The notes beneath the pieces were generated by a model. It searched no databases. It was not told where the DNA came from and worked only from the letters and a program-made list of their open reading frames with translations. The translations under genes and the position numbers were made by a program. Shown piece by piece: positions 43,892-62,291 of a stretch of DNA of 64,000 bases; the first letter of the stretch is position 1, and each line of letters begins with the position of its first letter. The stretch is from Halanaerobiales bacterium (GTDB lineage Bacteria; Bacillota; Halanaerobiia; Halanaerobiales; DTU029). Location: contig JAKSCG010000044.1 of NCBI GenBank assembly GCA_022360715.1, positions 1 through 64,000 of the forward strand, in the 5' to 3' direction.

Positions 43892-43905
43892 AGTCTTCCT
43901 CCCTC

Positions 43906-44805
43906 CTAATCTTCCTGATAAAAGACCCATCTGGCGCTAATGACAACGGTGATTGCCAGGAGCAAGGCAATTGTAAAAAAGTACAGATTGGCCATAGCGG
44001 TAGAGACCCCATAACCGGCTCCCCCAAAGGCAGTATCCCTGATCAGTTTTACTAAGTCATTACTCCCGGCAGTAAAAGAATCAATTACTGTATAAACAAT
44101 ATTTGTCACAATCAGCGGGCTAATTAAGGGCAGGGTGATAAACCAGAAATCTTCCCAACCGGTAGCCCCTTCAACCTTGGAAGCTTCGTACAAAGACGAA
44201 GGAATTGCTTTCAAACCGGCCAGAAAAATTAAGATCTGGATACCGGAAGCCCGGATAATGATCGGCACCTTGTCGACAATATTGAGGATATACTTCAGGC
44301 CAAGCTCCGGCAGCTTCAATTGTAATAGAAAAGCCTTCAAAGAAGAGCCACTGAGAAAACCGCCCGGGAGATCTTGACCGGTCTGTAACAACTCGGTCAT
44401 AAAATCAGTCCTTTCCAGGGCAAGGATAATTCCTGCTCCCATAATCACCGGCAGAAAGAAGATCGTCCTGACCAGGAGTCGCCCTTTAAATCTTTGATTA
44501 AGCAGAAGGGCGGCAAAGATACTAAAGAAAATAATTAAGGGGACATCGGCCAGGATATTACTAATTGTTGTTAGAAAGACCCGCAAAAAATCGGGATGGA
44601 CCAAAAGGGCTTTGCGGTAGTTTTCCCAACGGACAAAAGCTAGACTATAACCATCAGGATTGATCACCAATCGGCTCATACTAAAGACGATTGACTGGAT
44701 AAAGGGATAAAGAAAAAAGAAAAGAAAGCCGAAAATAAAGGGCAGAATGAAATAAAAGCCCAGCCAACTCTTTTTGGCACTAAGTGATCTTTTTTTAAAT
44801 ATCAT
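43906..44805 (-). CDS. ABC sugar transporter permease, MalF type
   Basis: 299 residues, six membrane segments. EAA loop YEASKVEGATGWEDFW...LPLISP (about 215-240). The segment around 125-165 (DFMTELLQTGQDLPGGFL) is an enlarged periplasmic loop. ATG overlaps the DUF5696 gene stop by four bases, so transport and that protein are translationally coupled. Confidence 0.9.
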   Translation of the reverse strand: MIFKKRSLSAKKSWLGFYFILPFIFGFLFFFLYPFIQSIVFSMSRLVINPDGYSLAFVRWENYRKALLVHPDFLRVFLTTISNILADVPLIIFFSIFAALLLNQRFKGRLLVRTIFFLPVIMGAGIILALERTDFMTELLQTGQDLPGGFLSGSSLKAFLLQLKLPELGLKYILNIVDKVPIIIRASGIQILIFLAGLKAIPSSLYEASKVEGATGWEDFWFITLPLISPLIVTNIVYTVIDSFTAGSNDLVKLIRDTAFGGAGYGVSTAMANLYFFTIALLLAITVVISARWVFYQED

Positions 44806-47570
44806 CGTAAGCTCCCTTCCTCTAAAACCTGATAACCTTCGGCCGCAACCGTTATGCCGTTTACTGTTACTGCTTGTTGATTATAATTAACCACAATTGA
44901 ACAGCTGTTTTCATAGCTAGTTAAATAAACATTTTCCGCCAACTGCCGGTGCCCGATAATCCGCTTATCCTGTAAGCCATGTAGGACTTGATTTACCTCC
45001 CGGTATAACTCACCGGCCTCGCTAAGCCAATCCCGATAATAACTGGCCAAAAGATCGTGGGCATAACTCGTCCCTTTGAGCAAAGATGAAGGCTGATAGG
45101 TCCATTTATAATAAGGGCTGGCACCGGTCTCCAGCGCCTTGAGTAAACCCCGGCGGGACTCTTCCCCCAGATTTAAAGGAGGAGTGGCATAGTTAACATA
45201 TCCGTGCAGAGAGATCTGAAAAAAGGGGACTTCCTGATCAATAATATTAAAATTATTACCGGTAAAAGGCATATTAACAATATGGTCGACCAGTGGTAAA
45301 AGAAATCCGTTACCCCCGTTCACCATTATGCTGAATTTATGTTGCTTTAATTTTTCCAGCTGTCTTTGAATCAGCACCAGGGATTGTTGGCGATCCACTA
45401 ATGCCGTCGGGTCTTTCCGAAAGTCTGAATTCAACTGTCGCCCCATCTCCCGCAGGGAAATACCGGTCAGTTGATCACCAGTAAAATCACTGAGGAATTG
45501 GGAAAGCAAACTATCCAGGCGGTGTGGGGACAGAATCGTCACATGCTCATCCGGTTGGTACTGATAGGTAGCCAGATTATAATCATAAATTCTGGCTACC
45601 CCATAATCGAGGAAACGGGCAGCATCAGACCCGGCCCGGAAATGATCAAAAAGACTGTCCCGGTAAACATTTAAAAAACAGACTTCGGGATAAAAAGAAA
45701 TCTGATGAGCAGATAAAAAAGAAGTTAGTCTTTGAAAATCCCTTTGTTGACCTAAAACCTTTTCCGGTCTGAAACGGGAAGGAAATTGCTGTGCTAAGCC
45801 ACCGGCCAGCATCCCGTTATATTTTAACTTGATATTGGAAACACCGCCGTCGATCAACTCCTGTAAAATCTCCTCGGCCTGCCGGTAGGTGGTTAAGGGC
45901 TTTACCACCTGTCTGGGGGCCCCCAACACAACCTCTTTTTGATCAAAGGCCCCGATCAACTCCAGATAAAAGGGGATATCATCTGCGGGAGTTAGCCGGC
46001 TTAACCCCTTTTGTTGCAAATATTCCTGATAGCTCAAAGCCATCCCGGTATAATTGGCTGCCGTTCCACTCAAAAAACGATAGCGGAGTCTAATATTACC
46101 CTGATAGATCCGGGATTGATAAATATTGATTAATCGTTCCCGCCCCTGCTCATTTTCATTCTCCGTCTCCATCTGTAAAGTAACTGTTCCTTTGGGAATA
46201 GTGGTGAATTTTGTCCAGACAGAATTATAGGAATTATTCCTTCCGGCAATATCGGCTTTAATACTGGCCAGGGCATCCCCTTCTTCAATAATTGCCAACC
46301 AGGCTTGACTTCCCTCTTTCAGGGCAAAAACCGGGAGGTAATTCTGCTGAAGGTTATTTAGTTTTTCCTTTTGGGGCATAGTAGTATAGTTAAGTCCATA
46401 GAGGGGCTGGATATAGGGAAGGGCATTAATCTTGCCGTTATTAAGTCTGATCAAAGCCCCCGGTCCGTCCGGGACGAAAATATAGCCCGCTTGTTCGCTG
46501 TCTGCCGCCCCAAAGTACTCCAATAGCTCAATGGCATGTAAGGGAAAATCGGTTTTATTACCCTGCTCATTAATGATATCCTGGGGATAGCTAATCTCGT
46601 CGACCGGGATATTGACCAGCAGGTCCGGACCGTCCAGGCGATATTCAACCGGGATCGCAAAGACCATATTATTGGGTCGAGGTTGATCGAGGTTATTGAT
46701 CCGATGGTCATGCTGGATATCTTCCGGTTGGTAACCACTCTCTTGAACAATTCTAATTATCTCCGGCAAATCCCACTTGGGGACATCATTTCTGAGGATA
46801 TAGGTGGGATTGCCCCGCAATTGGGCAACATGCTCTCCCGTCACGTCTAAATTAAGCTGGAATTTGTTATTATATTCAACCAACTGAGTAACTAACATTT
46901 CAATCAGTTCAACCTGATTGAGTTTATTCGGGCTATAATCCAGGAAGGTAGCCGCTACTTCCTCCTCCCGGTTACTATGAGAATAAAGTCGATAATCACC
47001 GAACAGCCTTTGGGCATCTTTATTTTCCACCGGCTCAGGCCTTTTTTCCAGTGAAATAAGTTCATAGCGTTTTTTAATAAATTCCCGGTCGGCGGGACGA
47101 ACGAGCCGGGCTAAGATTAACTGTTCAAAACGCTCTTGACTAACCATGATCGGAAGGTAATCCTCTTCCAACCACTTTTTCCCTAACAGATAATCAATCC
47201 TGACCCCATTTTTAAGCGGTTTTATTTCAAATTGTTGATATTTAATGCTCTGATTATAGTTATCCATTGTCAACCGTTTATCACCGGTAATAAAATAAGT
47301 AATCGATAACTGGGAACGGAGTTTGTCGCGCGCACTCCCATAAGCAATCCGCTCCGTCTGCTCAAGATTCCGGGGATTGGAATACCAGATCTGCCTGGTA
47401 TCTTTCCTATAAACAGCAAATTCTGTTGTTTCCTGATCGAGATAGAAACGGAGGGCCTGATTTTCCGCTACCAGGGTAAACCCGGCCAGCTCTCCGTTAT
47501 TTGCTGCCTTTATCGTAAAACAACTTGCTATTATCAGGAAAAAAATTAAATAAATTGCTCGATCTTTCAT
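44802..47570 (-). CDS. DUF5696-type exported protein of glycan transporter loci
   Basis: 922 residues. N-terminal hydrophobic segment about 4-22. It contains IASC, a possible lipobox, but also a signal-peptidase-I site (IKAAN), so lipidation is uncertain. The body starts with a beta-rich part (LRFYLDQETTEFAVYRKDTRQIWYSNP). A barrel-like C-terminal half follows (LKYNGMLAGG, SFYPEVCFLNVYRDS, TGISLREMGRQLNSDF, FSIMVNGGNGFLLPLVDH) that resembles a retaining-glycosidase-like TIM barrel. No catalytic residues can be named with confidence. Such proteins recur next to sugar ABC permeases in Firmicutes; the biochemical role is not established. Confidence 0.75.
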   Translation of the reverse strand: MKDRAIYLIFFLIIASCFTIKAANNGELAGFTLVAENQALRFYLDQETTEFAVYRKDTRQIWYSNPRNLEQTERIAYGSARDKLRSQLSITYFITGDKRLTMDNYNQSIKYQQFEIKPLKNGVRIDYLLGKKWLEEDYLPIMVSQERFEQLILARLVRPADREFIKKRYELISLEKRPEPVENKDAQRLFGDYRLYSHSNREEEVAATFLDYSPNKLNQVELIEMLVTQLVEYNNKFQLNLDVTGEHVAQLRGNPTYILRNDVPKWDLPEIIRIVQESGYQPEDIQHDHRINNLDQPRPNNMVFAIPVEYRLDGPDLLVNIPVDEISYPQDIINEQGNKTDFPLHAIELLEYFGAADSEQAGYIFVPDGPGALIRLNNGKINALPYIQPLYGLNYTTMPQKEKLNNLQQNYLPVFALKEGSQAWLAIIEEGDALASIKADIAGRNNSYNSVWTKFTTIPKGTVTLQMETENENEQGRERLINIYQSRIYQGNIRLRYRFLSGTAANYTGMALSYQEYLQQKGLSRLTPADDIPFYLELIGAFDQKEVVLGAPRQVVKPLTTYRQAEEILQELIDGGVSNIKLKYNGMLAGGLAQQFPSRFRPEKVLGQQRDFQRLTSFLSAHQISFYPEVCFLNVYRDSLFDHFRAGSDAARFLDYGVARIYDYNLATYQYQPDEHVTILSPHRLDSLLSQFLSDFTGDQLTGISLREMGRQLNSDFRKDPTALVDRQQSLVLIQRQLEKLKQHKFSIMVNGGNGFLLPLVDHIVNMPFTGNNFNIIDQEVPFFQISLHGYVNYATPPLNLGEESRRGLLKALETGASPYYKWTYQPSSLLKGTSYAHDLLASYYRDWLSEAGELYREVNQVLHGLQDKRIIGHRQLAENVYLTSYENSCSIVVNYNQQAVTVNGITVAAEGYQVLEEGSLR

Positions 47571-47591: not shown

Positions 47592-49739
47592 CTATAGCCG
47601 GTAAATCAGCTCTGTCCTTAAGTTATTAAAGAATCCGACCATCTGAGAAATTACACTGAAAAATAAGAGGCCGATAAAAAGCACCACACCCATCCCGACA
47701 ATAATAAAAATTGATATAAAAAATGTTTTTTTGAGTTCAAAATGGTGGGTAACCATTGTCGCAAAAAAGACCAACATAATTGACCAGAGTAAAGCCACTA
47801 CCAGAAAAAAATAGTAAAAAGCCCCCTCACTACTTGTAATCAAATTACTGATCATGGTCAAAGGTATATTAATCAGAATGAGCGGGGTCAGGGCATAGGC
47901 CGTATAAATATAGATATCCCGGAAAGTACCTTTGCCCTGCCAGAGGGTGGTTAAAGCCCAATTGACGATACACCATAAAAAAAACGGTACAAGGACACTG
48001 ATCAACTCCAGATAGATGTTTAAATCATTTAAATCCCGGGTATTAAAAATAAATCCGGTATATTGCCGCATCAAGATATATGTAAGGTTTACCAACAACA
48101 GCAGGACTGAAGCCGCTAAGACATTCCCCCGTTTCTCATACTTTAAATCCCAGAAACCGTCAAAGGGATGAATGATCACATAAAGGGCATACTTTAAACT
48201 ATCAAACAAATTAAGATACCACTTTTGGTCTGGGCTTGTTTTCCTGAGGCTTAGCGCTGCCTTGATCTGACCGAACAATCCCATTTTTTTGAACAGCAAC
48301 ACCAGTAAAATCAATAGCACCAATCCGGTCATAAGCATCCCAAAGCGCTGACTAATATACTGACGCCGATAAAGACCAAAAGCCTTGGAATAACCTACCC
48401 GGTCATTACCCAGGCGGTAGGTAGCCATCGCCTCCTTAAACTTACGCTGACGGAGCAAAGAACGACCAATCCCGCTGTAAGCCAATTCCATATTACTATT
48501 ATGTTTTAAAACCTCTTGCCACATCCTGGTTGCCTGGTCATATTGCCCGGACTGATAATATTTTTTAGCGCTCTGAATTAAACGGGCATACCTGGTTGGC
48601 TCAAAGACGACAACCTTGTTGGCCGCACTATCCAGGATCAATAATTGTTCACCGATATTCTCCAGGGCGACCGGGACCCGAAAATGCTTTTTTTGCCGAC
48701 CGCTCCCCCCAAAAACATAGAGTAAATTGCCGTTATCATCATAGGTAAAAATTCGACCCCGTTTGCGGTCCAGCACACTATAGAGCCCGTAACTCTGAGC
48801 ACAGATATCCACCAAGAGAGACGGTCCGGCGACCTTAAGCTCCGGATAAATCTCCGGATCAGGATAATCTATATCACCGACCGGCGGAAAAAAACCGTTT
48901 CTGCGCAACACATCACCACCTGACGGGTTTAGTCGCTTGATTACTTCTTCCTCACCAATCCCTCTCCCCGCTGCCACTGCCAAAATAAAGCCCTTGTGGT
49001 CCAGGTCAAAATTACTGTATTCAGTGGGCAGAAAAAGGGCCAAACGCTCTCGCTGTTCCCTGGTGACAATTCTCCGCCATATATAATCGACCAGGTTTGG
49101 TGAAACCCGGGGTGCCCCGATAAAACCTTTAAAAATACCTTTTTCATCAAACTCAACCAAACCGTCATAAATTCCCTGGGCAATTACATAAATCCTCTCC
49201 GCCCGGTCAACAATTACCTTACGGGGGTGAAAAGAAAAACTTTTGGCCCCGCTTTCATCAATACTCAAGGTTGCCGGCTGGATCACCCGTAGGTAATTCC
49301 AGTGTTGGTCAAAGATCACAATCCTCCGGTTACCCAGATCGGCAAGATAGATTTTCCCGGAATTACTGACAAAAATACCGGTGGGGTTGTTAAAGGAATC
49401 GGCCTGGCCAGCCCGACTAAACTGGCTGATAATATCAAGTACTTCCCAATCTTGATTAAAACAAATAATCCGGTTATTCCCTGAATCAACCAGGTAGATC
49501 CGATTATGACGGACAAATAGATCCTGTGGGGACTTAAAATTCCCTAGACCCAGCTCAACATCAGTTATTACCTTTTTTACGCGGTAGACAGCCGGGCCGG
49601 CGATCGCTTCCCCGTGAAAATTATAAAGATAACTGTCCGGATTTTGATAAATTGGAGCTGAAGAGGCATTAATTCCTAAATTTAATAAAAAAACCAAGCC
49701 AGCTACGAGTATTGTTAAACCGTTCTTAATCGACTTCAA
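47592..49739 (-). CDS. NHL-repeat / TPR / Yip1 membrane protein
   Basis: 715 residues with an unusual module order. Signal peptide about 1-27. NHL beta-propeller repeats about 60-380 (FKSPQDLFVRHNRIYLVDSGNNRI, NPTGIFVSNSGKIYLADLGNRRI, VFGGSGRQKKHFRVPVAL). Two TPR units about 385-445 (AKKYYQSGQYDQATRMWQEVLKHN). One membrane segment about 460-480, then a Yip1-like domain of five segments (about 510-710). It may be a large extracytoplasmic sensor or scaffold for the transporter genes on both sides; function unproven. Confidence 0.8.
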   Translation of the reverse strand: MKSIKNGLTILVAGLVFLLNLGINASSAPIYQNPDSYLYNFHGEAIAGPAVYRVKKVITDVELGLGNFKSPQDLFVRHNRIYLVDSGNNRIICFNQDWEVLDIISQFSRAGQADSFNNPTGIFVSNSGKIYLADLGNRRIVIFDQHWNYLRVIQPATLSIDESGAKSFSFHPRKVIVDRAERIYVIAQGIYDGLVEFDEKGIFKGFIGAPRVSPNLVDYIWRRIVTREQRERLALFLPTEYSNFDLDHKGFILAVAAGRGIGEEEVIKRLNPSGGDVLRRNGFFPPVGDIDYPDPEIYPELKVAGPSLLVDICAQSYGLYSVLDRKRGRIFTYDDNGNLLYVFGGSGRQKKHFRVPVALENIGEQLLILDSAANKVVVFEPTRYARLIQSAKKYYQSGQYDQATRMWQEVLKHNSNMELAYSGIGRSLLRQRKFKEAMATYRLGNDRVGYSKAFGLYRRQYISQRFGMLMTGLVLLILLVLLFKKMGLFGQIKAALSLRKTSPDQKWYLNLFDSLKYALYVIIHPFDGFWDLKYEKRGNVLAASVLLLLVNLTYILMRQYTGFIFNTRDLNDLNIYLELISVLVPFFLWCIVNWALTTLWQGKGTFRDIYIYTAYALTPLILINIPLTMISNLITSSEGAFYYFFLVVALLWSIMLVFFATMVTHHFELKKTFFISIFIIVGMGVVLFIGLLFFSVISQMVGFFNNLRTELIYRL

Positions 49740-49763: not shown

Positions 49764-50624
49764 TTAATCCAGACCGGATGTCGCCATCGTTTCAACTACT
49801 TTACTCTGGTTGATAATAAAGATAATAATCGGCACCCCCATCATAACCAGGGCAACGGCAGAGCTTACCCCGGCCCAGGCAATACCACCGGAAATGATCT
49901 GATTAAAGGCATAAGGTAGTGTCTTTAACTGTTCGCTATAGATAAACTCGCCACCGAAACGACGCCACAATTCCTGAAAAGAATAAATGGTCAGGGTTAG
50001 CCAGGCCGGCTTAACAATCGGCATTACAATCTGCCAAAAAATTCTGAGCTCACTGGCTCCGTCAAGACGGGCCGCTTCCAGTAAAGTATCCGGGATCATC
50101 GCATCAATAAACTGTTTCATCAAAAACAAACCTAAACTCATCGCCCAGGCCGGCAGAATAATTGCAGCATAATGATCAATCCAGCCCAGATAGGTCATCG
50201 TCAGATACTTCGGGATGGCAACAACCTCCTGCGAAAACATCAGTGAAAAGACCACCAGCGTAAAGAAGAGCTTACGTCCCCGAAATTGATGCTTGGACAG
50301 GACGAAAGCCGCCATTGAGGCAAAAATAACATGCCCACCTGTCCCGACAATCGTTATAAAGATCGTATTAAACAGATAGCGAGAAAAAGGTATCCAGGAA
50401 TCAGCCATAATAATTAACAGGTCTTTAAAATTATCCAGGGTCGGGTTACGCACAAAGAACTGAGGCGGAAACAAAAACAGTTCATTTAAAGGCTTGAAGG
50501 CATTAGAAACTATATAGATTAAAGGCAGGGCAGAAAAAGCGGCACCCGCTAACAATACCACAAATATTACCATATCACCGCCGAATGAACGAGTAACCCT
50601 TTTCCGGTGGATTCTAAAATTCAT
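49764..50624 (-). CDS. ABC sugar transporter permease, MalG type (second set)
   Basis: 286 residues, six membrane segments. EAA loop LEAARLDGASELRIFW...MPIVKPAW (about 180-205). It is not a recent copy of the MalG protein at 42.97-43.89 kb. 13 bases after its MalF partner. Confidence 0.91.
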   Translation of the reverse strand: MNFRIHRKRVTRSFGGDMVIFVVLLAGAAFSALPLIYIVSNAFKPLNELFLFPPQFFVRNPTLDNFKDLLIIMADSWIPFSRYLFNTIFITIVGTGGHVIFASMAAFVLSKHQFRGRKLFFTLVVFSLMFSQEVVAIPKYLTMTYLGWIDHYAAIILPAWAMSLGLFLMKQFIDAMIPDTLLEAARLDGASELRIFWQIVMPIVKPAWLTLTIYSFQELWRRFGGEFIYSEQLKTLPYAFNQIISGGIAWAGVSSAVALVMMGVPIIIFIINQSKVVETMATSGLD

Positions 50625-50637
50625 TTAAGTCCCTCCC

Positions 50638-51588
50638 TCAACTGCCTAAATTACGTAGTAAGCGCTGCACCAACTGCTGGGTAAGGATCATCACTACAAA
50701 AAGGACCACAGCAATCGTTGAAGCATAGCCCATTTCAAAACGGACATTACCATAATCAAGCAAGTGTGTAACTACTGTTCTACCGGCATAATCAGTACTG
50801 GGAAACCCGACCAGCGGAATAATATACCCGGCAGCAGCAAAGGATTGCGTGATCGACATGATCGCTCCAAACATCAGATATCCTTTCATTGCCGGCAGAG
50901 TAATATAGAAGAGTTCCTGCCAACGGTTTTTAATCCCATCGACCGCAGCCGCCTCATAAAGCTTGGGGTCAATCCCCTGTAAACCGGCAATAAAAACCAG
51001 GAAACTGGTCCCCATGCTCATCCAGAGAACGACCACAATTACTACCGGCATCATCCATTGGGGATCAAGCAGCCACTGAATTGGCTCATCAATCAGACCC
51101 CAGTAAAGGAGAAATCCATTAATATAACCATAGGAATCACCACTAAACATAATTTGCCAGATCATAAAAGCATAACCGGAGATCGAAGGGGCATAAAAAA
51201 TAGCCGATAGGATCGTCCTGATCCGGGGTTGGAGTTCGTTGATCAACCAGGCAAAGAAAAAACAAAGAAAATAACTAATTGGCCCGGTGATCGCCGCAAA
51301 AATAAAGGTATTTTTAACGGCGATCAAAAAAATATCATCAGCCAGGAATAAACGAAAGTAGTTCTGCCAACCAACCCACTGCGGGGGTTGCAGCATATTA
51401 TGATAGTTAAAACTGAAAAAAATAGCGATTAAAACCGGTAGTACGGTAAACCCCAAAAAAAGGATACCATAAGGGGCGAGAAAAAAATATGAGATGCGGT
51501 CACGCCACAGATCTTGCAGAAACAGGCTAAATCTATTTTGGTAGCTGCTTGGTAAGTTTATTTTGCCTTTACTTGGAATTGCGCGCAT
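50638..51588 (-). CDS. ABC sugar transporter permease, MalF type (second set)
   Basis: 316 residues: a basic N terminus of about 30 residues, then six membrane segments (FFLAPYGILFLGFTVLPVLIAIFF first). EAA loop YEAAAVDGIKNRWQELF...LPAMKGY (about 215-240). Begins 16 bases after the giant solute-binding protein gene, so these three genes form one importer. Confidence 0.91.
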   Translation of the reverse strand: MRAIPSKGKINLPSSYQNRFSLFLQDLWRDRISYFFLAPYGILFLGFTVLPVLIAIFFSFNYHNMLQPPQWVGWQNYFRLFLADDIFLIAVKNTFIFAAITGPISYFLCFFFAWLINELQPRIRTILSAIFYAPSISGYAFMIWQIMFSGDSYGYINGFLLYWGLIDEPIQWLLDPQWMMPVVIVVVLWMSMGTSFLVFIAGLQGIDPKLYEAAAVDGIKNRWQELFYITLPAMKGYLMFGAIMSITQSFAAAGYIIPLVGFPSTDYAGRTVVTHLLDYGNVRFEMGYASTIAVVLFVVMILTQQLVQRLLRNLGS

Positions 51589-51604: not shown

Positions 51605-54600
51605 CTAGAAACCTTGTTGCCAGTATAGCTTATGCCATTTTTCTTCTAATTCGGCCAGACTGACCGGTAGACCAAATTCTTTGCGTTTGCGGGTAATCTC
51701 TTCATTAATTAAGTAATTATAGTCAAGTAGTGTATCCCGGGCCGGTTTATTATAATAAACTACCTGCCGAAAAGCATTATCTAGATACCGACCGATCAAA
51801 TAACCTCCGGGAATTTCCGGTACCCCTTTCACCCACTCCAACTGCTCCGATAACTTCTGGTAATCTCTCGCTGACCAGGGTAGGAGGCTGAGTGCTTCTA
51901 GATTAGCGGTCGGATAGCGGGCGGCAGGCCCCATTAAACTCTCCAGTTGTCGGCCAAAGCTGACCTGAGTCGCGGCACTGGTCCACCACTTTAAAAACTC
52001 CCAGGCCGCCGTCTTATCCTGAGCAAGCTCCATAATCACCGTTCCCGGACCGGAGGCTGGGGGCAGCGGCCGACCGGAAGCATCGGCCATCCCGGCCGCT
52101 CCGGCCGGAATCGAACGATCAATTACCCGATCGGTGCGCACGGTCCCCGGGACCAGCGTAAAATCCCATTTCCCTCTTAACTCCGGAGCAAAGACCGTTA
52201 AAAGATTATAGAAGGTATACCCGGTGATCAGGATCGGCATCTCACCGGTTCTGAAGCGATTAGCCGGGTTATACAGTAAAGGGAGATTATATAGCTCATA
52301 TAATTCGGTCCAACGAGTGAAGGCCGCAATCGCCCTTTCATCATCAAAATTGGTTGCCAAGCCGTCTTCAATGAAGAGTTCTTCACCACTTTGATTCAGA
52401 AAGGTAACCAAAGTCAACACCCCGCCACTGGAAGAAAGGCTACCGACTGCGCCACTAATATTTCCAATACTAAGGCTGGTTACCCGGGGAGGTGCGGAGA
52501 AAGGAAAACCAAATTCCATATTATTCTTCTGGAGTTCGGGAATAATCTCCATCACATCATCCCAGGTTTCTGGTACAGTCAGACCATTTTCCTGTAAAAC
52601 ATCCTTTCGATAAAAAAGCATGGGAAAGGGTTGTTGTTCGGGGAGGGCATAAACACTATCCCGAAACATAAAGGGGACCAGGGCACTGGCCTTGAAGCGC
52701 CTGGCAACCTCGGCAAAATCGGCAAACTGGCTTAAATCGGCTACCGCCCCCCTTAAGGCAAAATTCAATGGTTGCCCCGGGGGCAAGCCAATTGCCACAT
52801 CGGGATTTTTACCGGCCAGGGTTGCCGGTAAAAGGGTTCCGATATCAATGATCTCCAGATTAACCGGTATCCCGGTCTCCGGTGTAAATTTATTTTCAAT
52901 CAAGCGCTTTAAGATCTGGGCTTTAGAACGATCAAAACCGGCCCAGACCCGCAAGGGTTCCCGCACTATTGTCCCTTCCGGCTGATATACATTACCGACC
53001 AGATTGTAATTATGGGTAAAAGAGGCCACAAAAGCCTTTGATTCATGGTTTAATAGCTGTTGTGCCGTCGGGGTGACTTCCGGTAGTTTTACTTCCGGAG
53101 AGGCAATAATCAGATAGTCGATCGCTAAGGGTTGGCGCCTTACTCCCAGCAACCAACTCCCCAAAGAGGCAAGATTATCGCGAAATTGTCCTAACCGGCC
53201 GGGAATACTTTCCGGTTGCGCAGCCAGTCCCTGTAATTGCCGGGAAAAATCCAGTAAAAGCACCGTATTACCACCCTTTTGTCCGGTATAATCTTCTAAC
53301 TCCCGGGCAATTCCCGCTAATACCCTACTTTGCTCTACTAAATTTTCCAGTAGTCCCGGAATCCTTTGTGCCAACTGGTAGGTCCGTAGCGGATCCGGAA
53401 CCGTTGAAGTAATCATAATGATCTGTCGGTAGAGATTATTTAATTGATATAAACTATCCTCCACTTTCCGAATCACATCAACCAGATCACCAAGAACAAC
53501 CTGGAGCGTTATGCGGTGATTACCCTTAGTTAAATAAAAGAGGTAAGGGTCATCTGTCCCTTCCGCTCCCAGCACAGACAACCGGTAATATCTACTATAG
53601 GGAAAACGAACTGCTTCCAGCTCCCGGAAGGGGAGCTGACCGTTAAGCAGTATTTGGCGATTCACATAACTGCCCCGCTGAAAAGCCTGTTTCCCTTTAA
53701 TCGCAATCTTATAAAAACCATCGGCCGGCACCTGAAAGTCCCAGCTGATCCACTGGCCTAACTGATCCCAACTCCCTCCGCCGATCGAGTTTAACCTGAT
53801 CAGAACCGGATGGTAAGGTTCCATTGTCGGGTCACCCTGATCAAACTGGGGATAGAGGACTGAACTTGACCGATAGCTGGAATCCCTCTCCTGTAGTTTA
53901 ATCATAACTCCGCTGTGCTGCTGAGTATCGTACTCCCGGTATTGGCGGCTAACCTCTTGATAGGTAGGAGCCAGCGGCAGTTGAAAGATCTTCAGCTCGG
54001 CAAGGGCCAGCGGTTCCTGACGGGAAACCAATCTGATTGTATTTAGTCCTTGCCTAAAGTAAAATTTAAAGGGTTCCCGATAATAACCGAGTGTGTCTGC
54101 TAAAACTGCCTCCTGCCAGAAAGGAAACTCCTGCTGGAGGGGATATAGTTCATTGCCCTGATTATCTACCTTTATCTCCTCGGCATCTCCCCAGATCCGC
54201 TGAAATGCCAGGTATTTAGCCTCTTCAAAGGGTAAAATACCATTAATCAACAACTCCCGCTCGATCGGATTTCCTTTACCGGCAATCGGATAATAGTTAA
54301 GGGCAATGTTATATAGTCCGGCTTCAGCTACTTCGACCTCCCATTCAATATAACCCTCTTCTTCCGTTAAAACTACTTTATTAACCCCTTGCAGTTGCTC
54401 TAATACCTGAATCTCCATATCAGTTGCACGATAAGTTAGGGCCGGGATAATTAACTCCTTTTCCGGTCGGACCGCCCCGGAATAATTTGCTAAATATTGA
54501 TTATAACTGATCTCCGGTTTAAAGAGATGATCAGCCAAAACGTTTGGTCGAATAACCCCAGCTAATAAGACAAATAAAATAAGCAAAACAAATGTATTTT

Positions 54601-54616
54601 TTTTAAACCGACCCAT
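51605..54616 (-). CDS. giant solute-binding protein fused to duplicated carbohydrate-binding-like domains
   Basis: 1003 residues from ATG 54616 (GGAGGGAAGC upstream; a longer frame to 54664 has no ribosome site). Signal peptide about 1-27, no lipobox. Two similar beta domains span about 75-215 and 275-380, each with an 'LLxNGxLPFxE' turn. A helical, Gln/Leu-rich connector runs to about 500. From about 555 to the end comes a type-1 solute-binding fold (LRVWAGFDRSKAQILKRLIE, NPDVAIGLPPGQPLNF, FYRKDVLQENGLTVPETWDDV, EFLKWWTSAATQ). Standard binding proteins are 400-450 residues, so the N-terminal half is an added glycan-recognition module. Confidence 0.88.
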   Translation of the reverse strand: MGRFKKNTFVLLILFVLLAGVIRPNVLADHLFKPEISYNQYLANYSGAVRPEKELIIPALTYRATDMEIQVLEQLQGVNKVVLTEEEGYIEWEVEVAEAGLYNIALNYYPIAGKGNPIERELLINGILPFEEAKYLAFQRIWGDAEEIKVDNQGNELYPLQQEFPFWQEAVLADTLGYYREPFKFYFRQGLNTIRLVSRQEPLALAELKIFQLPLAPTYQEVSRQYREYDTQQHSGVMIKLQERDSSYRSSSVLYPQFDQGDPTMEPYHPVLIRLNSIGGGSWDQLGQWISWDFQVPADGFYKIAIKGKQAFQRGSYVNRQILLNGQLPFRELEAVRFPYSRYYRLSVLGAEGTDDPYLFYLTKGNHRITLQVVLGDLVDVIRKVEDSLYQLNNLYRQIIMITSTVPDPLRTYQLAQRIPGLLENLVEQSRVLAGIARELEDYTGQKGGNTVLLLDFSRQLQGLAAQPESIPGRLGQFRDNLASLGSWLLGVRRQPLAIDYLIIASPEVKLPEVTPTAQQLLNHESKAFVASFTHNYNLVGNVYQPEGTIVREPLRVWAGFDRSKAQILKRLIENKFTPETGIPVNLEIIDIGTLLPATLAGKNPDVAIGLPPGQPLNFALRGAVADLSQFADFAEVARRFKASALVPFMFRDSVYALPEQQPFPMLFYRKDVLQENGLTVPETWDDVMEIIPELQKNNMEFGFPFSAPPRVTSLSIGNISGAVGSLSSSGGVLTLVTFLNQSGEELFIEDGLATNFDDERAIAAFTRWTELYELYNLPLLYNPANRFRTGEMPILITGYTFYNLLTVFAPELRGKWDFTLVPGTVRTDRVIDRSIPAGAAGMADASGRPLPPASGPGTVIMELAQDKTAAWEFLKWWTSAATQVSFGRQLESLMGPAARYPTANLEALSLLPWSARDYQKLSEQLEWVKGVPEIPGGYLIGRYLDNAFRQVVYYNKPARDTLLDYNYLINEEITRKRKEFGLPVSLAELEEKWHKLYWQQGF

Positions 54617-54690: not shown

Positions 54691-57600
54691 CTAGTTCAAC
54701 TCTACTTTAAAGGTTTTGAGCTGATATGGTTTAATCGAAAAAACAAATCCCTGAGCAGTTGTTTCCAGTGGAGCGATCTCTTCTTCCATTAAATTGCACT
54801 CACTCACTCTTTTTATTTTTCCGGCCAACTTTACTTCAACCCGATCGCGCTGATTACCGTATTCATAAAACCTTAAGATTAATTGCTCACTATCTTCTGC
54901 TTTTTTAACAGTATCAAGAATAACACTGTTGCTATTAACGTCAATAAAGGAACAACTCTCGGCCAGTTCACCCTTTTTACTATTAACTAAAACCGCCGAG
55001 AGCGGATAATTTAAGGCAAAGGCTTCATCTGTCGTCCCTCCGCTAAACCATCCCCCCTGATGCGGGTACAGGCTGTAGGTAAAGCTGTGCCGACCCTGGT
55101 CTGCCTCCGGATCGGGATCGATCCCCGATTTGATTAAAGTTAGCCGGAGCAGATTGTCCTTGATATCATAGCCGTATTTACAATCATTTAAGAGGCTAAC
55201 CCCATAGTTTTGCTCAGAAAGGTCGGCCCATTTCTGGGCAACCGTCTCAAATTTAGCGTAATCCCAACTGGTGTTCCAGTGGGTTGGCCGTTCAACATTA
55301 CCAAACTGAATCTCATATCTTGCTTTAGTTACTCTAAGGTCGACCGGAAATGCTACTTTCAACAAGATTTGATGTTGCTGCCAGTCCAGCTCAGTCTTAA
55401 AATCAATTCGCCGGCTGTTACTGTAAACAATCATCCGCTGTTCAATCAGTGAAGCAAGAAACTTCCACTTAAATCTAATTACTACCCGGTCCGGGCCATT
55501 TTCTTCAATCTCCCTCTCCACAAGCTCCTCAACCGGGTATTCCTTTTCCCGGTAATAGAGGTCGATATCCCAGGCATCATAAGTCATCGGCCGATCTTCA
55601 AAGGCCTGGAAGAGATTAGCCTGCCTCCCTGCCGGCAGGATTTCCCGGTCTGCTTCTTTATCAAATAAAGAGCTGATCTGCCCCTGCCGGTTTAAGACAA
55701 TCCGGAAGTATTTATTTTCGATCAGATCATCGGCAACAGTCACCTTATTCTCTTCAGCAATTAGCGGACCCGGGTTCTGTTCAACAATTTGAAAAGCTCG
55801 GTAACCCAGGGCCGGCACCTCCGGTATATAAAGCAAAATCTCTTTTTCCGCCCCGTTATTAATTACTTTACTCCGTAATCTGGTCTTTGCACCGCTGATA
55901 AAATATTTGTCGGCCAACTCCTTTTGATAAGGAATAGTGACTGTACCTTCCCGCGGCCAGGAAAGGGGATTAAAGACGACCAGTTTTTTACCGGCAACCG
56001 CTACTTTACCGGCAATTGCTTGCAGTGAGTCGCTTAATAAAGTATGGCCCTCTTCCAGTACTTGCTTAAACTCCTTTTCACTATCTTGATAAACTTCCCG
56101 GATCGAAGAACCGGGTAAAATATCATGAAACTGGTTTTTCAAAATTGTTTTCCAGTTGCGATTAATTTCCTGCCGGGGATAACGATAATCAGCCAGCATC
56201 TGTTCAGCCATACTGTTAAAAAGCTCCACATTATGATATAAAATCTCACTTAAGCGATTATTCCGTTTGGTCCTGGCCTGTGAGGTATATGTACCGCGGT
56301 GATATTCCAAATAAAGTTCACCGTCGACGACCGGTAATCTGGGATTATCCTTTACTTTTTCCGCCAACCGGGCAAAAAATGGTTCGGCCTGACCAAACCT
56401 GAGTTCAGGTAGTCCTGGCAAGTCCTGTATAATTCTGCCGCTTTCCAGCATATCCTTGGTCGGTCCACCACCCCCATCACCCCAGCCATAAGCAAGTAAT
56501 AACTGATCATTAATATCTTTTTGTTGGTAGTGATTCCAGACCCCCTGTACACTGGCCGGATTTAACATGCCATTATATGTATAAAAACCAGGATTATTTC
56601 CTTCGGCAGTTGTAATAAAATGGGTTAAGACCTCGGTCCCATCAATTCCCCGCCATAAAAAGGTATCATACTCCGGCCGGTTATACTGGCTCCAACTGAT
56701 CTTGGTTGTCATAAAATACTCGAGACCACTCTGGGCGATAATCTGCGGTAAAGCCCAGGAATAACCAAAAACATCCGGCAACCATAGGATCTTGCAGTCT
56801 CGACCAAATTCCTCTTTGATAAAACGCACCCCGTAGAGGAACTGTCGGACCAACGACTCCCCGGAAGGGACATTACAGTCGGCCTCAACCCACATTCCCC
56901 CGGTAACTTCCCATTCCCCCGATTTTATCCGTGTTTTGATTTTTTCAAAAATAGCCGGATAATCATCTTTAATAAATTGATAGAGTTGGGGACTACTTTG
57001 CAGGAACTGGTATTCCGGATACTGGTCCATTAAATGCAGCACCGTGGAAAAAGTCCGGGAACACTTTTCCCGGGTATGGTCAAGCCGCCATAACCAGGCC
57101 ACATCAATATGAGAATGACCAACAGCGGTAATTACCGGTCTATTCCCGTCCGTTGGTTTAGATTGGCTTAGTCCTTCCCGCAAAAAGTTATTGGCCTGTT
57201 GGAGCGAAAGGTAAAAGTCCGCTGAACCGGCTTCTCGAAAATCAATCAGATTAATCGCTTGATTTAACAGATTAGTCAGTCTTTGCCGAACAAGACTCTT
57301 TTCCGGTAACACTTTGACCGTTTCCAGGACAGTCCTGGCCCTGAAATAAAAGTCATCGGTATTTTGATTAATTTTAACCAGGTTGGCCTTTTCAAAGAGC
57401 CTCATTTCATTCTGTAGTCCACTAAAAGCCTTGATCGCGATATGCAAAATACCGTCCTGATACCATTCCGGTTTTAAATAAACCTCCTGATGATTTTGAT
57501 CCAGGCCCTGAACCGGTTGACCATTAATATAGACCAATGACTCGGCACCACTTAACCCACTTTTTTGACCTTTACCCAACACCAAGTCCAGGGCAATTGT

Positions 57601-57840
57601 ACCGGATTGGAACTCAGCCGGCAACTTACAAGCTATCCTAAACCAGGCGGTAACATCCTTTCCTCCCCAGTAATCCCCAGGTTGAATCACTGGCCATTCC
57701 CGATCATCAAAAGTTGGTTTTTCCGCACCGCTGACGTTTTCGACGTGATATTTAAACGACTTCAGCGGCAATTCCCTTTCAAAAATATGTTTTTTCAGGT
57801 CCTTGATATATCTGGCTGCCTTTTCATTAGTAAAATACAT
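54691..57840 (-). CDS. cytoplasmic GH38 alpha-mannosidase
   Basis: 1049 residues, no signal peptide. An N-terminal beta domain (about 1-160) precedes the catalytic domain. The zinc-site motif GHSHIDVAWLW has His244 and Asp246. GGMWVEADCNVPSGESLVRQ follows, and WLPDVFGYS has the nucleophile Asp356. Long C-terminal beta-sandwich domains are present. Trims alpha-linked mannose from imported oligosaccharides, most likely high-mannose glycans freed by the GH85 enzyme of the same operon. AGGGGGC before ATG; 36 bases after the regulator gene with no terminator between. Confidence 0.94.
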   Translation of the reverse strand: MYFTNEKAARYIKDLKKHIFERELPLKSFKYHVENVSGAEKPTFDDREWPVIQPGDYWGGKDVTAWFRIACKLPAEFQSGTIALDLVLGKGQKSGLSGAESLVYINGQPVQGLDQNHQEVYLKPEWYQDGILHIAIKAFSGLQNEMRLFEKANLVKINQNTDDFYFRARTVLETVKVLPEKSLVRQRLTNLLNQAINLIDFREAGSADFYLSLQQANNFLREGLSQSKPTDGNRPVITAVGHSHIDVAWLWRLDHTREKCSRTFSTVLHLMDQYPEYQFLQSSPQLYQFIKDDYPAIFEKIKTRIKSGEWEVTGGMWVEADCNVPSGESLVRQFLYGVRFIKEEFGRDCKILWLPDVFGYSWALPQIIAQSGLEYFMTTKISWSQYNRPEYDTFLWRGIDGTEVLTHFITTAEGNNPGFYTYNGMLNPASVQGVWNHYQQKDINDQLLLAYGWGDGGGGPTKDMLESGRIIQDLPGLPELRFGQAEPFFARLAEKVKDNPRLPVVDGELYLEYHRGTYTSQARTKRNNRLSEILYHNVELFNSMAEQMLADYRYPRQEINRNWKTILKNQFHDILPGSSIREVYQDSEKEFKQVLEEGHTLLSDSLQAIAGKVAVAGKKLVVFNPLSWPREGTVTIPYQKELADKYFISGAKTRLRSKVINNGAEKEILLYIPEVPALGYRAFQIVEQNPGPLIAEENKVTVADDLIENKYFRIVLNRQGQISSLFDKEADREILPAGRQANLFQAFEDRPMTYDAWDIDLYYREKEYPVEELVEREIEENGPDRVVIRFKWKFLASLIEQRMIVYSNSRRIDFKTELDWQQHQILLKVAFPVDLRVTKARYEIQFGNVERPTHWNTSWDYAKFETVAQKWADLSEQNYGVSLLNDCKYGYDIKDNLLRLTLIKSGIDPDPEADQGRHSFTYSLYPHQGGWFSGGTTDEAFALNYPLSAVLVNSKKGELAESCSFIDVNSNSVILDTVKKAEDSEQLILRFYEYGNQRDRVEVKLAGKIKRVSECNLMEEEIAPLETTAQGFVFSIKPYQLKTFKVELN

Positions 57841-57876: not shown

Positions 57877-58992
57877 TTAATCCAGCGGTAAACAGGAATC
57901 TCTTTCGATTAGTTCAGTTGGGTAATACAGCTGTTGGCTCACCTGGAATTCCCCATAATCACCTTCCTCCTTTAGTCTAATTTTATCAAGCAATAACCGG
58001 GCAGCTCGCTGACCGATTTTTTTTGATTGCTGCGCAATTGAGGTCAGCGGAACCTCAAGGTGTTTTACCACATCCAGGTTATCAAAACTAACCAAGGAAA
58101 GCTCCCGGGGGAGCAGGATTCCCTTTTCTCGACACATTTTCACAATATCAAGCGCGATATAATCATTAACTGCTACTACCGCCGTTGGTTTATGTTCTTT
58201 TAAAAAATGATAGACCTGTAAGATATCTTTATCCTGGTGATGGATGCGGTTAAAAGAAAAGACCCAGTTATATTCCAGGCCATATTCGACCATGGCCTTC
58301 TGATAACCGATTATTCGGTCTTCTACACTACTGGTTTTATTAGATTCATGCTTAATAAAGGCAATTTTTTCGTGACCGAGCTTAATCAAATACTCGGTTG
58401 CTTTATATCCGCCGTCGATGTTATCGGACATAATACAGTCGGTCTCACAATCCTGGAGACGACGGTCGATTAAAACAAAGGGAAACGCCTCTTCTTTTAA
58501 GTCAGAGATGGCCGTACTATCCTTCTGGTCTTCGGCCGGCATGATAATCAGCCCGGCAACTCCTTCGTTTTTTAGGAATTGGATATTTTCTGCTTCTGTT
58601 TTATAATCATCCTTGGAATCCATAAAAGTCATTTTATACTGGACATCTTGCAAACCACGTTGAATACCGTTCAAGAGCTTCATTTCCATCTCCGTATCAC
58701 ATGATGGTAAACTAACCCCCACAAAATCACTTTTTTTATGGTAGATCTCCTTTTTATCAAAAACAAAGGTACCATTACCCTGAACCCGATATAAAAAGCC
58801 GGCCTGTACTAATTGTTGAATCGCTTTTCTGACTGTATATCTGCTTACCTCCAGGCTTTTACATAATTCCCGCTCCGGCGGAATTAACTCCCCGGGTTGA
58901 TAGATACCTTCATTAATCTTTTGTAAAATAAAATCAGCGACCCGCTGGTACAATAATTTATTTACATGGGGATTTAATTGATCAGTTGTCAT
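57877..58992 (-). CDS. GntR-LacI chimeric regulator of the glycan operon (AraR type)
   Basis: About 371 residues from ATG 58992 (GGTGAG before it; an ATG at 59004 is also possible). The GntR winged helix is at about 10-75 (LIPPERELCKSLEVSRYTVRKAIQQLV, FLYRVQGNGTFVF). A LacI/periplasmic-binding effector domain follows (about 90-368; FVGVSLPSCDTEMEMKLLNGIQ, DRIIGYQKAM, TAVVAVNDYIALDIV, LSLVSFDNLDVVKHLEVPLTSIAQQSKKIG). First gene of the 21.6-kb operon; probably binds the direct repeat just after its own -10 box and is released by a sugar. Confidence 0.9.
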   Translation of the reverse strand: MTTDQLNPHVNKLLYQRVADFILQKINEGIYQPGELIPPERELCKSLEVSRYTVRKAIQQLVQAGFLYRVQGNGTFVFDKKEIYHKKSDFVGVSLPSCDTEMEMKLLNGIQRGLQDVQYKMTFMDSKDDYKTEAENIQFLKNEGVAGLIIMPAEDQKDSTAISDLKEEAFPFVLIDRRLQDCETDCIMSDNIDGGYKATEYLIKLGHEKIAFIKHESNKTSSVEDRIIGYQKAMVEYGLEYNWVFSFNRIHHQDKDILQVYHFLKEHKPTAVVAVNDYIALDIVKMCREKGILLPRELSLVSFDNLDVVKHLEVPLTSIAQQSKKIGQRAARLLLDKIRLKEEGDYGEFQVSQQLYYPTELIERDSCLPLD

Positions 58993-59017
58993 CAGTCTCA
59001 CCATTCCTCTTATCGCT

Positions 59018-59232: not shown

Positions 59233-60066
59233 CTATCCTTTTAATCCTGAAAGGGAGATGTTGCCAACAAACTGTTTCGAAAAGATAACAAAAAAGATAA
59301 TTAAGGGTAAACTGATCAGGATATTTGCGGCATTATTGATAACTAAGTCCCTTGATCCTATATTGTAGAATTGGTCAAAGGCTTTTAGCGCTAATTGTAC
59401 AGTATTTAAGCGGGCTTCATTAATGTAAATATAGGGCCAGAAAAAATCATTATAAGAGGTCTGAAAGGTTAAGATAGCCAGAGTAGCCAGGGCTGGTTTA
59501 GCAATCGGCAAGATAATTTTTAAAAAAATACCTAGTTCCGAACAACCATCGATCCGGGCTGCCTCAATTAATGAATCAGGAATTGTTTCCATAAATTGCT
59601 TTAATAAAAATATACCCAGGGCATCACCGATCCGGGGAATAATTAAGGGTAAAAAGCTATTGAGCCAACCAAAGTAATTCATCATTAAAAAGGAAGGAAC
59701 TATCGTGATTCGCGGTGGAATCATGACTGTTAAAAATAAAACAGTAAAAATAACATTCTTACCGGGAAAACTCTTTTTAGCAAAGGCATAACCACACATA
59801 GCAGCAGCAAACAAATGTAAAAAGGTTACACTGAACCCGATTAAAAGGGAGTTAAATAATGCTCGGCTAAAGTTACCTTTTTCCCAAGCTGTCCAGTAAT
59901 TACTAATGCTAAAAGAATCCGGCCACAAATCCGGAATCAACCCCTCCTGCCAATCCACCGGTTGTAAGGAAGTGACAATTGAAAGATAAAAAGGCAGTAG
60001 ACTGAGCAGCACAAAAATAATTAAGGACACATGGGCAACATATTTATAGGAAAGGGTTTTATTCAT
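59233..60066 (-). CDS. ABC sugar transporter permease, MalG type (second operon)
   Basis: 277 residues, six membrane segments. EAA loop IEAARIDGCSELGIFL...LPIAKPAL (about 172-197). Ends in the KQFVGNISLSGLKG tail typical of MalG/UgpE proteins. It overlaps the MalF gene end by eight bases. Confidence 0.92.
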   Translation of the reverse strand: MNKTLSYKYVAHVSLIIFVLLSLLPFYLSIVTSLQPVDWQEGLIPDLWPDSFSISNYWTAWEKGNFSRALFNSLLIGFSVTFLHLFAAAMCGYAFAKKSFPGKNVIFTVLFLTVMIPPRITIVPSFLMMNYFGWLNSFLPLIIPRIGDALGIFLLKQFMETIPDSLIEAARIDGCSELGIFLKIILPIAKPALATLAILTFQTSYNDFFWPYIYINEARLNTVQLALKAFDQFYNIGSRDLVINNAANILISLPLIIFFVIFSKQFVGNISLSGLKG

Positions 60067-60955
60067 AGCTAACCAGTTCCCCCCTGGTCAAAAATTTTCG
60101 CTGGACTACGGTAATCAATATGATTATTACAGCCAGAAAAACCGATTCTGCCGCCGCATAACCCGTTTCAAAACTATTAAAGATATTGCGGTAAATATCC
60201 AGAACGATTGTTCTGGTAGCATAGATCGGACCACCATTAGTTAAGAGTAAGACCTGGTCGAAAATTTTAAAACCATTGATCGTCCCAATAATAATTACAA
60301 AAGTAATTACCGGCTTCAAAAGGGGTAATGTTATATGCCTGAATCTCTGTCCGGCGTTGGCACCGTCCAGGAGGGCCACTTCATAAAAAACATCAGGGAT
60401 ACCCCTTAATCCGACCAGGAAGATAATCATATCCCAACCCACTCCCTGCCAAATCATCATAATAGCTACGCTGTAAATAGCCAATCTCGGCGAATCTAAC
60501 CAGGCCTGTGGGGGAAGCTGTAAAAAGCTCAAAATATAATTGAATAAGCCACGTGGGGTGGATTCTAAAACATATTCCCAGATTCTACTGCTGGCCACTA
60601 CCGGGGTTATTACCGGAATATAAAGCAGGGTCTTATATAAATTAGAAAACCGAAGCTTTTTACTTAGTAAATAGGCTAAAAATAGCGAAATAACTGCTGC
60701 CCCGATCGTTGTGAGTACTGTTAATACAACTGTATTTTTTAGTGAGATGATAAACCTTTGATCAGTCAATAATCTTTGAAAATTTTCCAGTCCGATTAAT
60801 GCGGCCGGCGGACCAATTAAACGGGAGTCGGTAAAGCTTAACCAGGTTAAATAAAAGATCGGGTAAATAAAAAAAACAACGAATATTATTAAAGCCGGTG
60901 ATATAAAAAAATATGAGCTTCGCTCTCTCCATATTTCTTTAAAGAGCTTAAACAA
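60059..60955 (-). CDS. ABC sugar transporter permease, MalF/UgpA type (second operon)
   Basis: 298 residues from TTG 60955, which has GGGAGGTG six bases before it. An ATG-started frame to 61018 would overlap the intergenic stem-loop and lacks a ribosome site. Six membrane segments. EAA loop YEVALLDGANAGQRFR...LPLLKPV (about 195-220). The product then starts MFKLFKEIWRERSSYFFISPALI, as usual for this family. Confidence 0.9.
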   Translation of the reverse strand: MFKLFKEIWRERSSYFFISPALIIFVVFFIYPIFYLTWLSFTDSRLIGPPAALIGLENFQRLLTDQRFIISLKNTVVLTVLTTIGAAVISLFLAYLLSKKLRFSNLYKTLLYIPVITPVVASSRIWEYVLESTPRGLFNYILSFLQLPPQAWLDSPRLAIYSVAIMMIWQGVGWDMIIFLVGLRGIPDVFYEVALLDGANAGQRFRHITLPLLKPVITFVIIIGTINGFKIFDQVLLLTNGGPIYATRTIVLDIYRNIFNSFETGYAAAESVFLAVIIILITVVQRKFLTRGELVSYE

Positions 60956-60997
60956 ATTGAACACCTCCCTATCCATCCCCCCAAATGAGCCTGATAG

Positions 60998-61036
60998 GGT
61001 TATCCAGATCAAAGGCATGCCCTGATCTGGATAACC
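60998..61036 (-). repeat. perfect 14-bp stem-loop between SBP and permease genes
   Basis: GGTTATCCAGATCA/TGATCTGGATAACC around an 11-base loop holding GGCATGCC. It begins 7 bases after the solute-binding-protein stop and has no T-tract. Confidence 0.8.
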
Positions 61037-61043
61037 ATTTGCT

Positions 61044-62291
61044 TTATTTGTATTTAGCTAAGGACTTATTGCTTTTCGCCACTGCTTCGTCGAGCGCTTC
61101 CTGGGGAGTAGCTTTGTTTAATAATACCTTTTGTATAGCAACTGACATATGTTCTTGAATTTCCGGCCAAGCCGGTGTGCCGGGTCTGGTTTTAACATGT
61201 TCGATCTGTTCTTTAAAGACCTGCCAGTCTTTGGTCTGGAAATAATGATGATCAAACCCGTCTTTCAGACTGGGAAGCAGATTAGTTTTATGGGCCCACA
61301 TGATCTGATACTTTTTGCTAGCACTTAAGAATTTAATGAAATGATAAGCTGCTTCAGGATTTTTCGAGGCGGAATTGATGGCGAGACTATAAAGACCAAG
61401 ACCGGAAACAGAGCCAATCTCCGGTTTTAATTCCGGCAATAAGGCATAAGCAAAGGGACGACCTTCTTCGGTGATCTTACCCATATGCCAGCAGCCCATA
61501 TCCAGAAAGGCTACTCCTCCATTATAGAAATCATCTTCATAATAAGCCGATACCGGGGCAACCTTGTGTTTATATCCAATGTCTTTCAATAGCTGCAAGG
61601 CTTCAACCGCTTCCTTACTATTATAGACCGCTTCTGTCCAGTCTTGATTTAACACCTCTCCCCCGTTACGCCATACCCAGAATAAGAACTGAAACTGCAT
61701 CCAACCACTATTTTTAGGTGCATTAGGAATAGTATATCCCCAAAGATCAATCTGGCCGTCACCGTCAGTATCACGGGTATTTTGCTTGGCGGCCGCAATC
61801 AACTCTTCCAGATTAGTCGGCACCTCTGTTGCTGTTTCATTTAATAATTCTTGATTATACATCAACGCTATGGTATTGGCATCAAAGGGAAGAGCAAATA
61901 CTTGATCCTGGTAAAGATTAGCTTGCCAAGCCCCTTGAAAGTATTTATCTTTAATTTCGTTTACCCCAAATTGATTTAAGTCTAATAACATCTTTTTGTA
62001 ACCAAAGGATTGCACCCAGATATGATCTAATCTGACAATATCAGGTCCTTTTCCCCCGACAAAAGAAATTTGAAACTTATCCTGGTAATTTGCTTGCCCC
62101 TGCCATTCCGGAACTATTTCGATCTCCGGATACTCTTTGCTGAAATCTTCGATCGCACTCTTTAGAACAGCACTCTCATTTTCCCCCTGTGGCCACCAAA
62201 TCGTAATCCTGGTTTTAGCTAAAACAACCGGACTTAAAACCAGGGTAATTACCATCAATACCACCAAAATACTGATTAATGATTTTTTCAT
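61044..62291 (-). CDS. ABC sugar transporter solute-binding protein (second operon)
   Basis: 415 residues. Signal peptide about 1-25 (VVLAK), no lipobox. SBP type 1 fold: RITIWWPQGENESAVLKSAIEDFSKEYPEIEIVPEWQGQANY (in parts), GKGPDIVRLDHIWVQSF, LPFDANTIALMYNQELLNE, DTDGDGQIDLWGYTIP (Ca-loop-like) and NPEAAYHFIKFLSASKKYQ. GGGGAGG before the ATG. Ligand unknown; clustering with the N-glycan operon suggests a related sugar. Confidence 0.93.
   Translation of the reverse strand: MKKSLISILVVLMVITLVLSPVVLAKTRITIWWPQGENESAVLKSAIEDFSKEYPEIEIVPEWQGQANYQDKFQISFVGGKGPDIVRLDHIWVQSFGYKKMLLDLNQFGVNEIKDKYFQGAWQANLYQDQVFALPFDANTIALMYNQELLNETATEVPTNLEELIAAAKQNTRDTDGDGQIDLWGYTIPNAPKNSGWMQFQFLFWVWRNGGEVLNQDWTEAVYNSKEAVEALQLLKDIGYKHKVAPVSAYYEDDFYNGGVAFLDMGCWHMGKITEEGRPFAYALLPELKPEIGSVSGLGLYSLAINSASKNPEAAYHFIKFLSASKKYQIMWAHKTNLLPSLKDGFDHHYFQTKDWQVFKEQIEHVKTRPGTPAWPEIQEHMSVAIQKVLLNKATPQEALDEAVAKSNKSLAKYK

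Follow-up and report, generated by a model that had tools for sequence, protein, structure and literature searches.

The window (the whole 64,000-nucleotide stretch analyzed, from a Halanaerobiales bacterium) encodes on its minus strand, at 51605-54616, a solute-binding protein (SBP) of 1003 residues, here called the giant SBP. The original prediction had these coordinates and this length right and left the strand unstated; a plus-strand reading of 51605-54616 was rejected because the frame is not open. The genes of the set, its neighbors and the parts of the giant SBP are listed below from high to low coordinates, with the evidence for each in parentheses.

57877-59004, minus: GntR-type regulator with a LacI-like sugar-binding domain (Pfam)
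54691-57840, minus: GH38 alpha-mannosidase, no signal peptide, predicted cytoplasmic (Pfam, sequence)
51605-54616, minus: giant CUT1 solute-binding protein, 1003 aa (SBP_bac_1 match, alignment, AlphaFold2 model)
54533-54616, minus: signal peptide, aa 1-28, no lipobox cysteine (hydrophobic 9-27, then VLADH)
53981-54469, minus: D1, predicted CBM6/35-type beta-sandwich, about aa 50-212 (hhalign, models, profile search, Foldseek)
54221-54253, minus: shared turn in D1, LLINGILPFEE, aa 122-132 (sequence, alignment, hhalign)
53489-53905, minus: D2, predicted CBM6/35-type beta-sandwich, about aa 238-376 (hhalign, models, CBM35 of CITase at E 1.6e-8, Foldseek)
53621-53653, minus: shared turn in D2, ILLNGQLPFRE, aa 322-332 (sequence, alignment, hhalign)
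53012-53485, minus: helical-bundle connector, about aa 378-535 (AlphaFold2 models)
51677-52954, minus: Venus-flytrap solute-binding domain, about aa 555-980 (Pfam, model, Foldseek; nearest solved structures 5ci5 and 5ysb-5ysf)
50638-51588, minus: permease A, EAA loop intact (gene context, sequence)
49764-50624, minus: permease B, EAA loop intact (gene context, sequence)
47592-49739, minus: NHL beta-propeller and TPR outside, with a Yip1 membrane domain (Pfam, context, sequence)
44802-47570, minus: DUF5696 protein, 'GH129' in the C. bescii xylan locus (Pfam, literature, PF18952 search)
43906-44805, minus: permease D, second pair (gene context, sequence)
42968-43930, minus: permease C, second pair (gene context, sequence)
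41594-42901, minus: ordinary-size solute-binding protein, the variable partner (Pfam, conservation comparison)
37386-40085, minus: GH85 endo-beta-N-acetylglucosaminidase with PKD and F5/8 type C domains and a signal peptide, predicted secreted (Pfam, sequence)

The giant SBP gene starts with ATG, has a GGGAGG ribosome site and encodes a clean signal peptide (residues 9-27 hydrophobic); an alternative GTG start is possible at 54664. In a Pfam scan PF01547 (SBP_bac_1) matched residues 567-884 (E 4.6e-22), and an AlphaFold2 model of the full protein, built from 62 sequences (mean pLDDT 89.6, pTM 0.88), orders the domains as beta (about 50-212), beta (about 238-376), helical bundle (378-535) and flytrap (555-980). 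Both a normal binding fold in the C-terminal half and a helical connector ahead of it had been predicted, and both are there, the connector with helices at 378-534 of the model. The protein thus combines the significant SBP_bac_1 match and the flytrap fold by which CUT1 SBPs are recognized. Foldseek searches with the full model returned sugar SBPs as best matches, namely the CUT1 proteins Tlet_1705 (5ci5) and Lin1841 (beta-1,2-glucooligosaccharide-binding, 5ysb-5ysf), which resemble the giant SBP in the fold of its C-terminal flytrap (TM about 0.7-0.8 over the target) but are only some 390-400 residues long, with no D1, D2 or helical bundle.

SBPs in general are under half the size of the giant SBP, as the original prediction stated, but the large form is no oddity: it constitutes a widespread family found in about 10% of the genomes sampled across the phylum (the N-terminal half was detected in 47 of 398 genomes of an even sample). 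The whole architecture is kept in 62 aligned relatives of about 930-1080 aa, and a fusion or frameshift artefact was rejected on this basis as the cause of the size.

The two N-terminal beta domains are duplicates, as had been proposed: hhalign of the D1 and D2 family profiles gave a probability of 99.6% (E 6e-24), and neither profile matched the helical connector. The duplication is real and old, since it is found in all aligned members. The proposed shared turn aligns in register between D1 and D2, with D1 alone matching the exact pattern LLxNGxLPFxE. D1 also holds an insertion of about 40 residues with invariant residues, whereas D2 is without this conserved insertion.

By Pfam, residues 1-550 match nothing above cut-off, and CBM_35 appears only below it (in the window protein it scores 15.8 bits, the cut-off being 28). 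When each member was searched against Pfam, CBM_35 was found at E 0.1 or better in 37 of 62, at best 9.8e-7; since the matches of the window protein fall below the gathering score, D1 and D2 may be structural. Against PDB sequences, a profile of the N-terminal half matched the CBM35 region of cycloisomaltooligosaccharide glucanotransferase with D2 (E 1.6e-8) and, weakly, C. thermocellum CBM35 2w47 with D1 (E 0.027). A separate model of this half (pLDDT 93.2, pTM 0.90) matched CBM6 2cdp and CBM35 2w1w and 2vzp in Foldseek (TM about 0.65-0.73 over the module). The top Foldseek rows were insecticidal toxins, a glucosyltransferase and EngBF, all multi-domain chains with low TM-scores, and are read as matches to those chains' own beta-sandwich parts. 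The modeled fold of both domains is that of a CBM6/CBM35-type beta-sandwich, so the earlier label "glycan-recognition-like" was apt as far as the fold is concerned, and an enzyme module at the N-terminus was rejected because sequence profile and fold searches both led to CBM6/35. The likeness to the known modules (2w1w, 2vzp, 2cdp, CITase 5x7g) lies in the beta-sandwich, significant by sequence profile for D2; D1 and D2 differ from these modules in scoring below the gathering threshold, in sitting on an SBP rather than an enzyme and, for D1, in the conserved insertion.

Three loci of one other family of the phylum (L093:9177-10811; L094:5151-6743, minus; L107:977 onward, minus) encode secreted proteins of about 530-544 aa that consist of D1, D2 and helices with no SBP domain, away from transporters.

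The original prediction overlooked the second importer and second SBP of the same gene set. EAA loops are present in all four window permeases. The window gene set includes no ATPase; a single UgpC/MsmX-type ATPase above cut-off is encoded in the source genome, on another contig. The NHL/TPR and Yip1 parts are two separate genes in many relatives. A single-sequence search of the DUF5696 protein (44802-47570) against solved structures gave nothing significant, and no paper on DUF5696 by name was found in the open-licence literature. The operon ends (37386-42901) with the GH85 endoglycosidase, a LamG/CE2_N-like secreted protein and the ordinary SBP, which suggests glycoprotein glycan use. Directly upstream (59233-63545) lies a third sugar importer, comprising two permeases and a 415 aa SBP, with its own GntR/LacI-type regulator.

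Relatives of the giant SBP are encoded on more than 400 stretches. Among the 80 loci with DNA context, 49 carry the complete set of eight genes (giant SBP, permease A, permease B, NHL/TPR-Yip1, DUF5696, permease D, permease C and ordinary SBP), usually on one strand, though arrangements differ. Permease A was found in 78 of the 80 and permease B in 76, the remainder being short contigs or missed ORF calls, and the two lie directly 3' of the giant SBP in nearly every locus with a long enough contig. Handover of a ligand to the adjacent permease, as originally suggested, is therefore plausible. The giant SBP and DUF5696 co-occur in 26 genomes, the SBP alone in 2 (G104 and G154) and DUF5696 alone, over the cut-off, in 0; these counts cover the handles common to the N-terminal-half search and an independent PF18952 search (about 299 genomes), the two tables being compared by reading. 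All 8 tested genomes that lack DUF5696 beside the giant SBP encode it elsewhere, and in most single-copy genomes the two genes share a contig within roughly 10 kb. The set can break up, some genomes having the SBP and its two permeases apart from the rest. It is widespread and mostly unstudied, and in different species its two sugar importers would serve different glycans of plant or animal origin.

Glycosidases beside the set vary: GH38 and GH85 in the window; GH38 in L009, L010 and beside the window protein's own paralogue on contig C244; GH10 in L023, L040 and L031; GH43 in L024, L035, L070, L048 and L041; GH9-CBM35-GH26 in L013; GH5 in the Treponema loci L082 and L083; GH130 in L088; and a rhamnosidase in L071. 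The enzymes examined next to the window set are GH38 and GH85, with no xylanase among them. A xylan-only system as a general statement was rejected, as the neighbors include GH38/GH85, GH9-GH26, GH130 and GH78.

Across the 49 complete loci, 70 of 389 columns of the giant binding domain are at least 95% identical, vs 5 of 401 for the ordinary SBP. When paired loci differ in glycosidase context, the median identity is 53% for the giant binding domain, 45% for the giant N-terminal half and 32% for the ordinary SBP; when they are alike in context, a small group of 10 pairs of close relatives, the values are 78%, 60% and 66%, respectively. Because the giant SBP was the query by which the 80 loci were gathered, its conservation is overstated, but the contrast inside matched pairs remains. 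The window and L013 (GH9-GH26) share 65% identity in the giant SBP vs 36% in the ordinary SBP. A further caveat is that the window and L009 both have GH38, yet their ordinary SBPs are only 31% alike.

In two loci (L022:8399-12970 and L028:8345-12970) a GH10 xylanase with an F5/8 type C domain is fused in frame to the giant SBP, giving proteins of 1524 and 1542 aa, respectively. The fusions are 80% identical, have no internal stops and retain the catalytic motifs WDVVNE and TEMD, while the SBP's own signal peptide is missing where the two parts join. In L031 separate overlapping genes encode the same GH10 and SBP, and other genomes encode GH10 just upstream of the giant SBP. The fusion places the SBP outside the cell with a depolymerizing enzyme and supports a place for it in glycan capture.

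The same gene order is known from the xylan degradation locus of C. bescii, which Rodionov et al. (PMC8579813) write as xloEFG-X-GH129-axoFGE-xyn genes. It encodes two CUT1 transporters and is induced on xylan, about 10- to 100-fold for proximal genes. A later paper (PMC12285236) reports ACTAGTAAACGCTTACGATA as the XynR operator preceding Athe_0174. The gene order of the xylan locus is present in seven genomes of one genus, three of which have a perfect copy of the 20-base operator upstream of the giant SBP gene, at a distance of about 90 to 150 bases. Judging by operator and gene order, these genomes are probably those of C. bescii and relatives. In the Caldicellulosiruptor-like genomes a second operator pattern yielded nothing beyond scattered matches and was set aside. 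Because of the shared gene order and the exact operator, the giant SBP is equated with XloE, X with NHL/TPR-Yip1 and 'GH129' with DUF5696. The window has the identical order of giant SBP, two permeases, X, DUF5696 ('GH129'), two permeases and SBP. The homologue that corresponds to XloE (Athe_0174) of Caldicellulosiruptor/Anaerocellum bescii, with the operator upstream, has 954 aa and is 42% identical overall. The XloE locus carries xylanases and the LacI-type XynR, whereas the window set carries GH38/GH85 and a GntR-type regulator.

The accessible portions of PMC8579813 and PMC12285236 assign XloE to one of the locus's two CUT1 transporters, and no domain analysis of XloE was found in those portions. 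The shared ATPase MsmK of C. bescii (PMC12096829) is comparable to the lone UgpC/MsmX-type ATPase here, and the XDL transporters of C. saccharolyticus also respond to biomass xylan content (PMC5658599). Searches of the open-licence literature turned up no paper that deals with the giant SBP's size or its N-terminal domains, with Yip1 in combination with ABC transporters or with CBM-bearing SBPs; on fusions, the pneumococcal N-glycan paper was the one useful result. The giant SBP is a member of a known, barely examined type, and the point of interest is the wider pattern of a constant giant SBP in a two-importer set across several glycans.

For the window itself, the gene content, and only the gene content, includes the secreted GH85, importer and alpha-mannosidase by which an N-glycan locus is recognized. 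The same logic of N-glycan use is found in pneumococcal EndoD (GH85) with the NgtS-P1-P2 importer and GH38 (PMC5215778); NgtS, however, is an SBP of ordinary type that has a single permease pair, and the gene table of that paper lists no DUF5696 or NHL-Yip1 partner. By this analogy, and on the single basis of the GH38 and GH85 adjacency, the substrate of the window set is likely an N-glycan. Secreted GH85 would free the glycan, the importers would take it up and the cytoplasmic GH38 would trim it.

As usually described, a carbohydrate importer has one binding protein, two permeases and an ATPase, and the binding protein sets the substrate. The conserved set described here has a pair of binding proteins and two pairs of permeases. 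Of the binding proteins the larger, which bears the CBM-type domains, varies less, in contexts that span xylan, beta-mannan/glucan and probable N-glycan. We consider it somewhat more probable than its negation that the giant SBP is the constant receptor of a two-importer module in which the ordinary SBP and the neighboring glycosidases set the substrate. The giant SBP would be secreted and would serve permeases A and B as the receptor of a CUT1 sugar importer, which a shared MsmX/UgpC-type ATPase encoded elsewhere would energize; the second importer (permeases C and D with the ordinary SBP), the NHL/TPR-Yip1 membrane protein and the DUF5696 protein would complete the module. The C-terminal flytrap would pass oligosaccharide to permeases A and B, the two CBM6/35-type domains and helical bundle may keep glycan chains, partner proteins or both beside the flytrap, and the ordinary SBP with permeases C and D would supply specificity. 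Both sugar binding by any of these domains and the division of labor between the SBPs are what we infer. Should the giant SBP be a constant receptor, a substrate inferred from it would be misleading for many loci of Bacillota and Treponema. C. bescii, which has the same set and genetics (knockouts reported), allows a direct test.

The N-terminal arm invites two other readings. D1, D2 and the bundle could form a protein-docking arm to DUF5696, NHL/TPR-Yip1 or the second importer instead of a sugar-binding arm, which the near-perfect co-occurrence with DUF5696, the invariant residues across D1, D2 and bundle, the D1 insertion that D2 lacks and the D1-D2-helix proteins without an SBP in some genomes would fit; the fold, however, is that of sugar-binding modules, and some secreted D1-D2 proteins stand alone, far from transporters. 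Docking falls short of an even chance in our judgment but comes close behind the best explanation, and both can hold together. The original idea, that the giant SBP is a substrate-specific receptor of an ordinary CUT1 importer whose CBM-type domains both grip the same glycan and raise its local concentration, agrees with the CBM6/35 fold of D1 and D2, with the fusion of a secreted GH10 xylanase and F5/8 type C domain to the giant SBP and with the C. bescii annotation as one of two xylan oligosaccharide transporters (PMC8579813). It is at odds with the identity that the binding domain (53%) and N-terminal half (45%) retain across differing glycosidases vs the ordinary SBP (32%), and we regard it as rather unlikely. 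The original prediction also offered a sensor that signals to a regulator in place of a transport receptor. Regulators do lie near many loci (GntR/LacI type, AraC-type response regulators), but they differ in kind and place, two permeases with intact EAA loops lie 3' of the gene, and neither a signaling domain nor a membrane anchor was found in the giant SBP sequence beyond its signal peptide; such a role is highly improbable.

Extending the preferred reading of a constant receptor, one may speculate that all eight proteins assemble into a single physical machine for glycan intake. The giant SBP with permeases A and B would be its substrate-independent engine, fed by an exchangeable ordinary SBP and glycosidases, and the CBM-type arms and NHL/TPR-Yip1 would be its scaffold. 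This would be, in logic, a Bacillota/Treponema counterpart of Bacteroides Sus-type systems, and we think it doubtful, a touch more so than the grip on a single glycan.

Other versions of the system were also seen. The source genome encodes four giant SBPs and four DUF5696 genes; the further SBP copies, on contigs C244, C24 and C165, are 59%, about 52% and 33% identical to the window protein, respectively, and the C244 copy also adjoins GH38. Two loci (L096 and L102) encode relatives of permeases A and B, two MalK-type ATPases, a D1/D2-like protein of 377-380 aa, small membrane proteins and a radical SAM protein, with a TPR protein in L096, and may represent a remote variant whose parts are encoded by separate genes.
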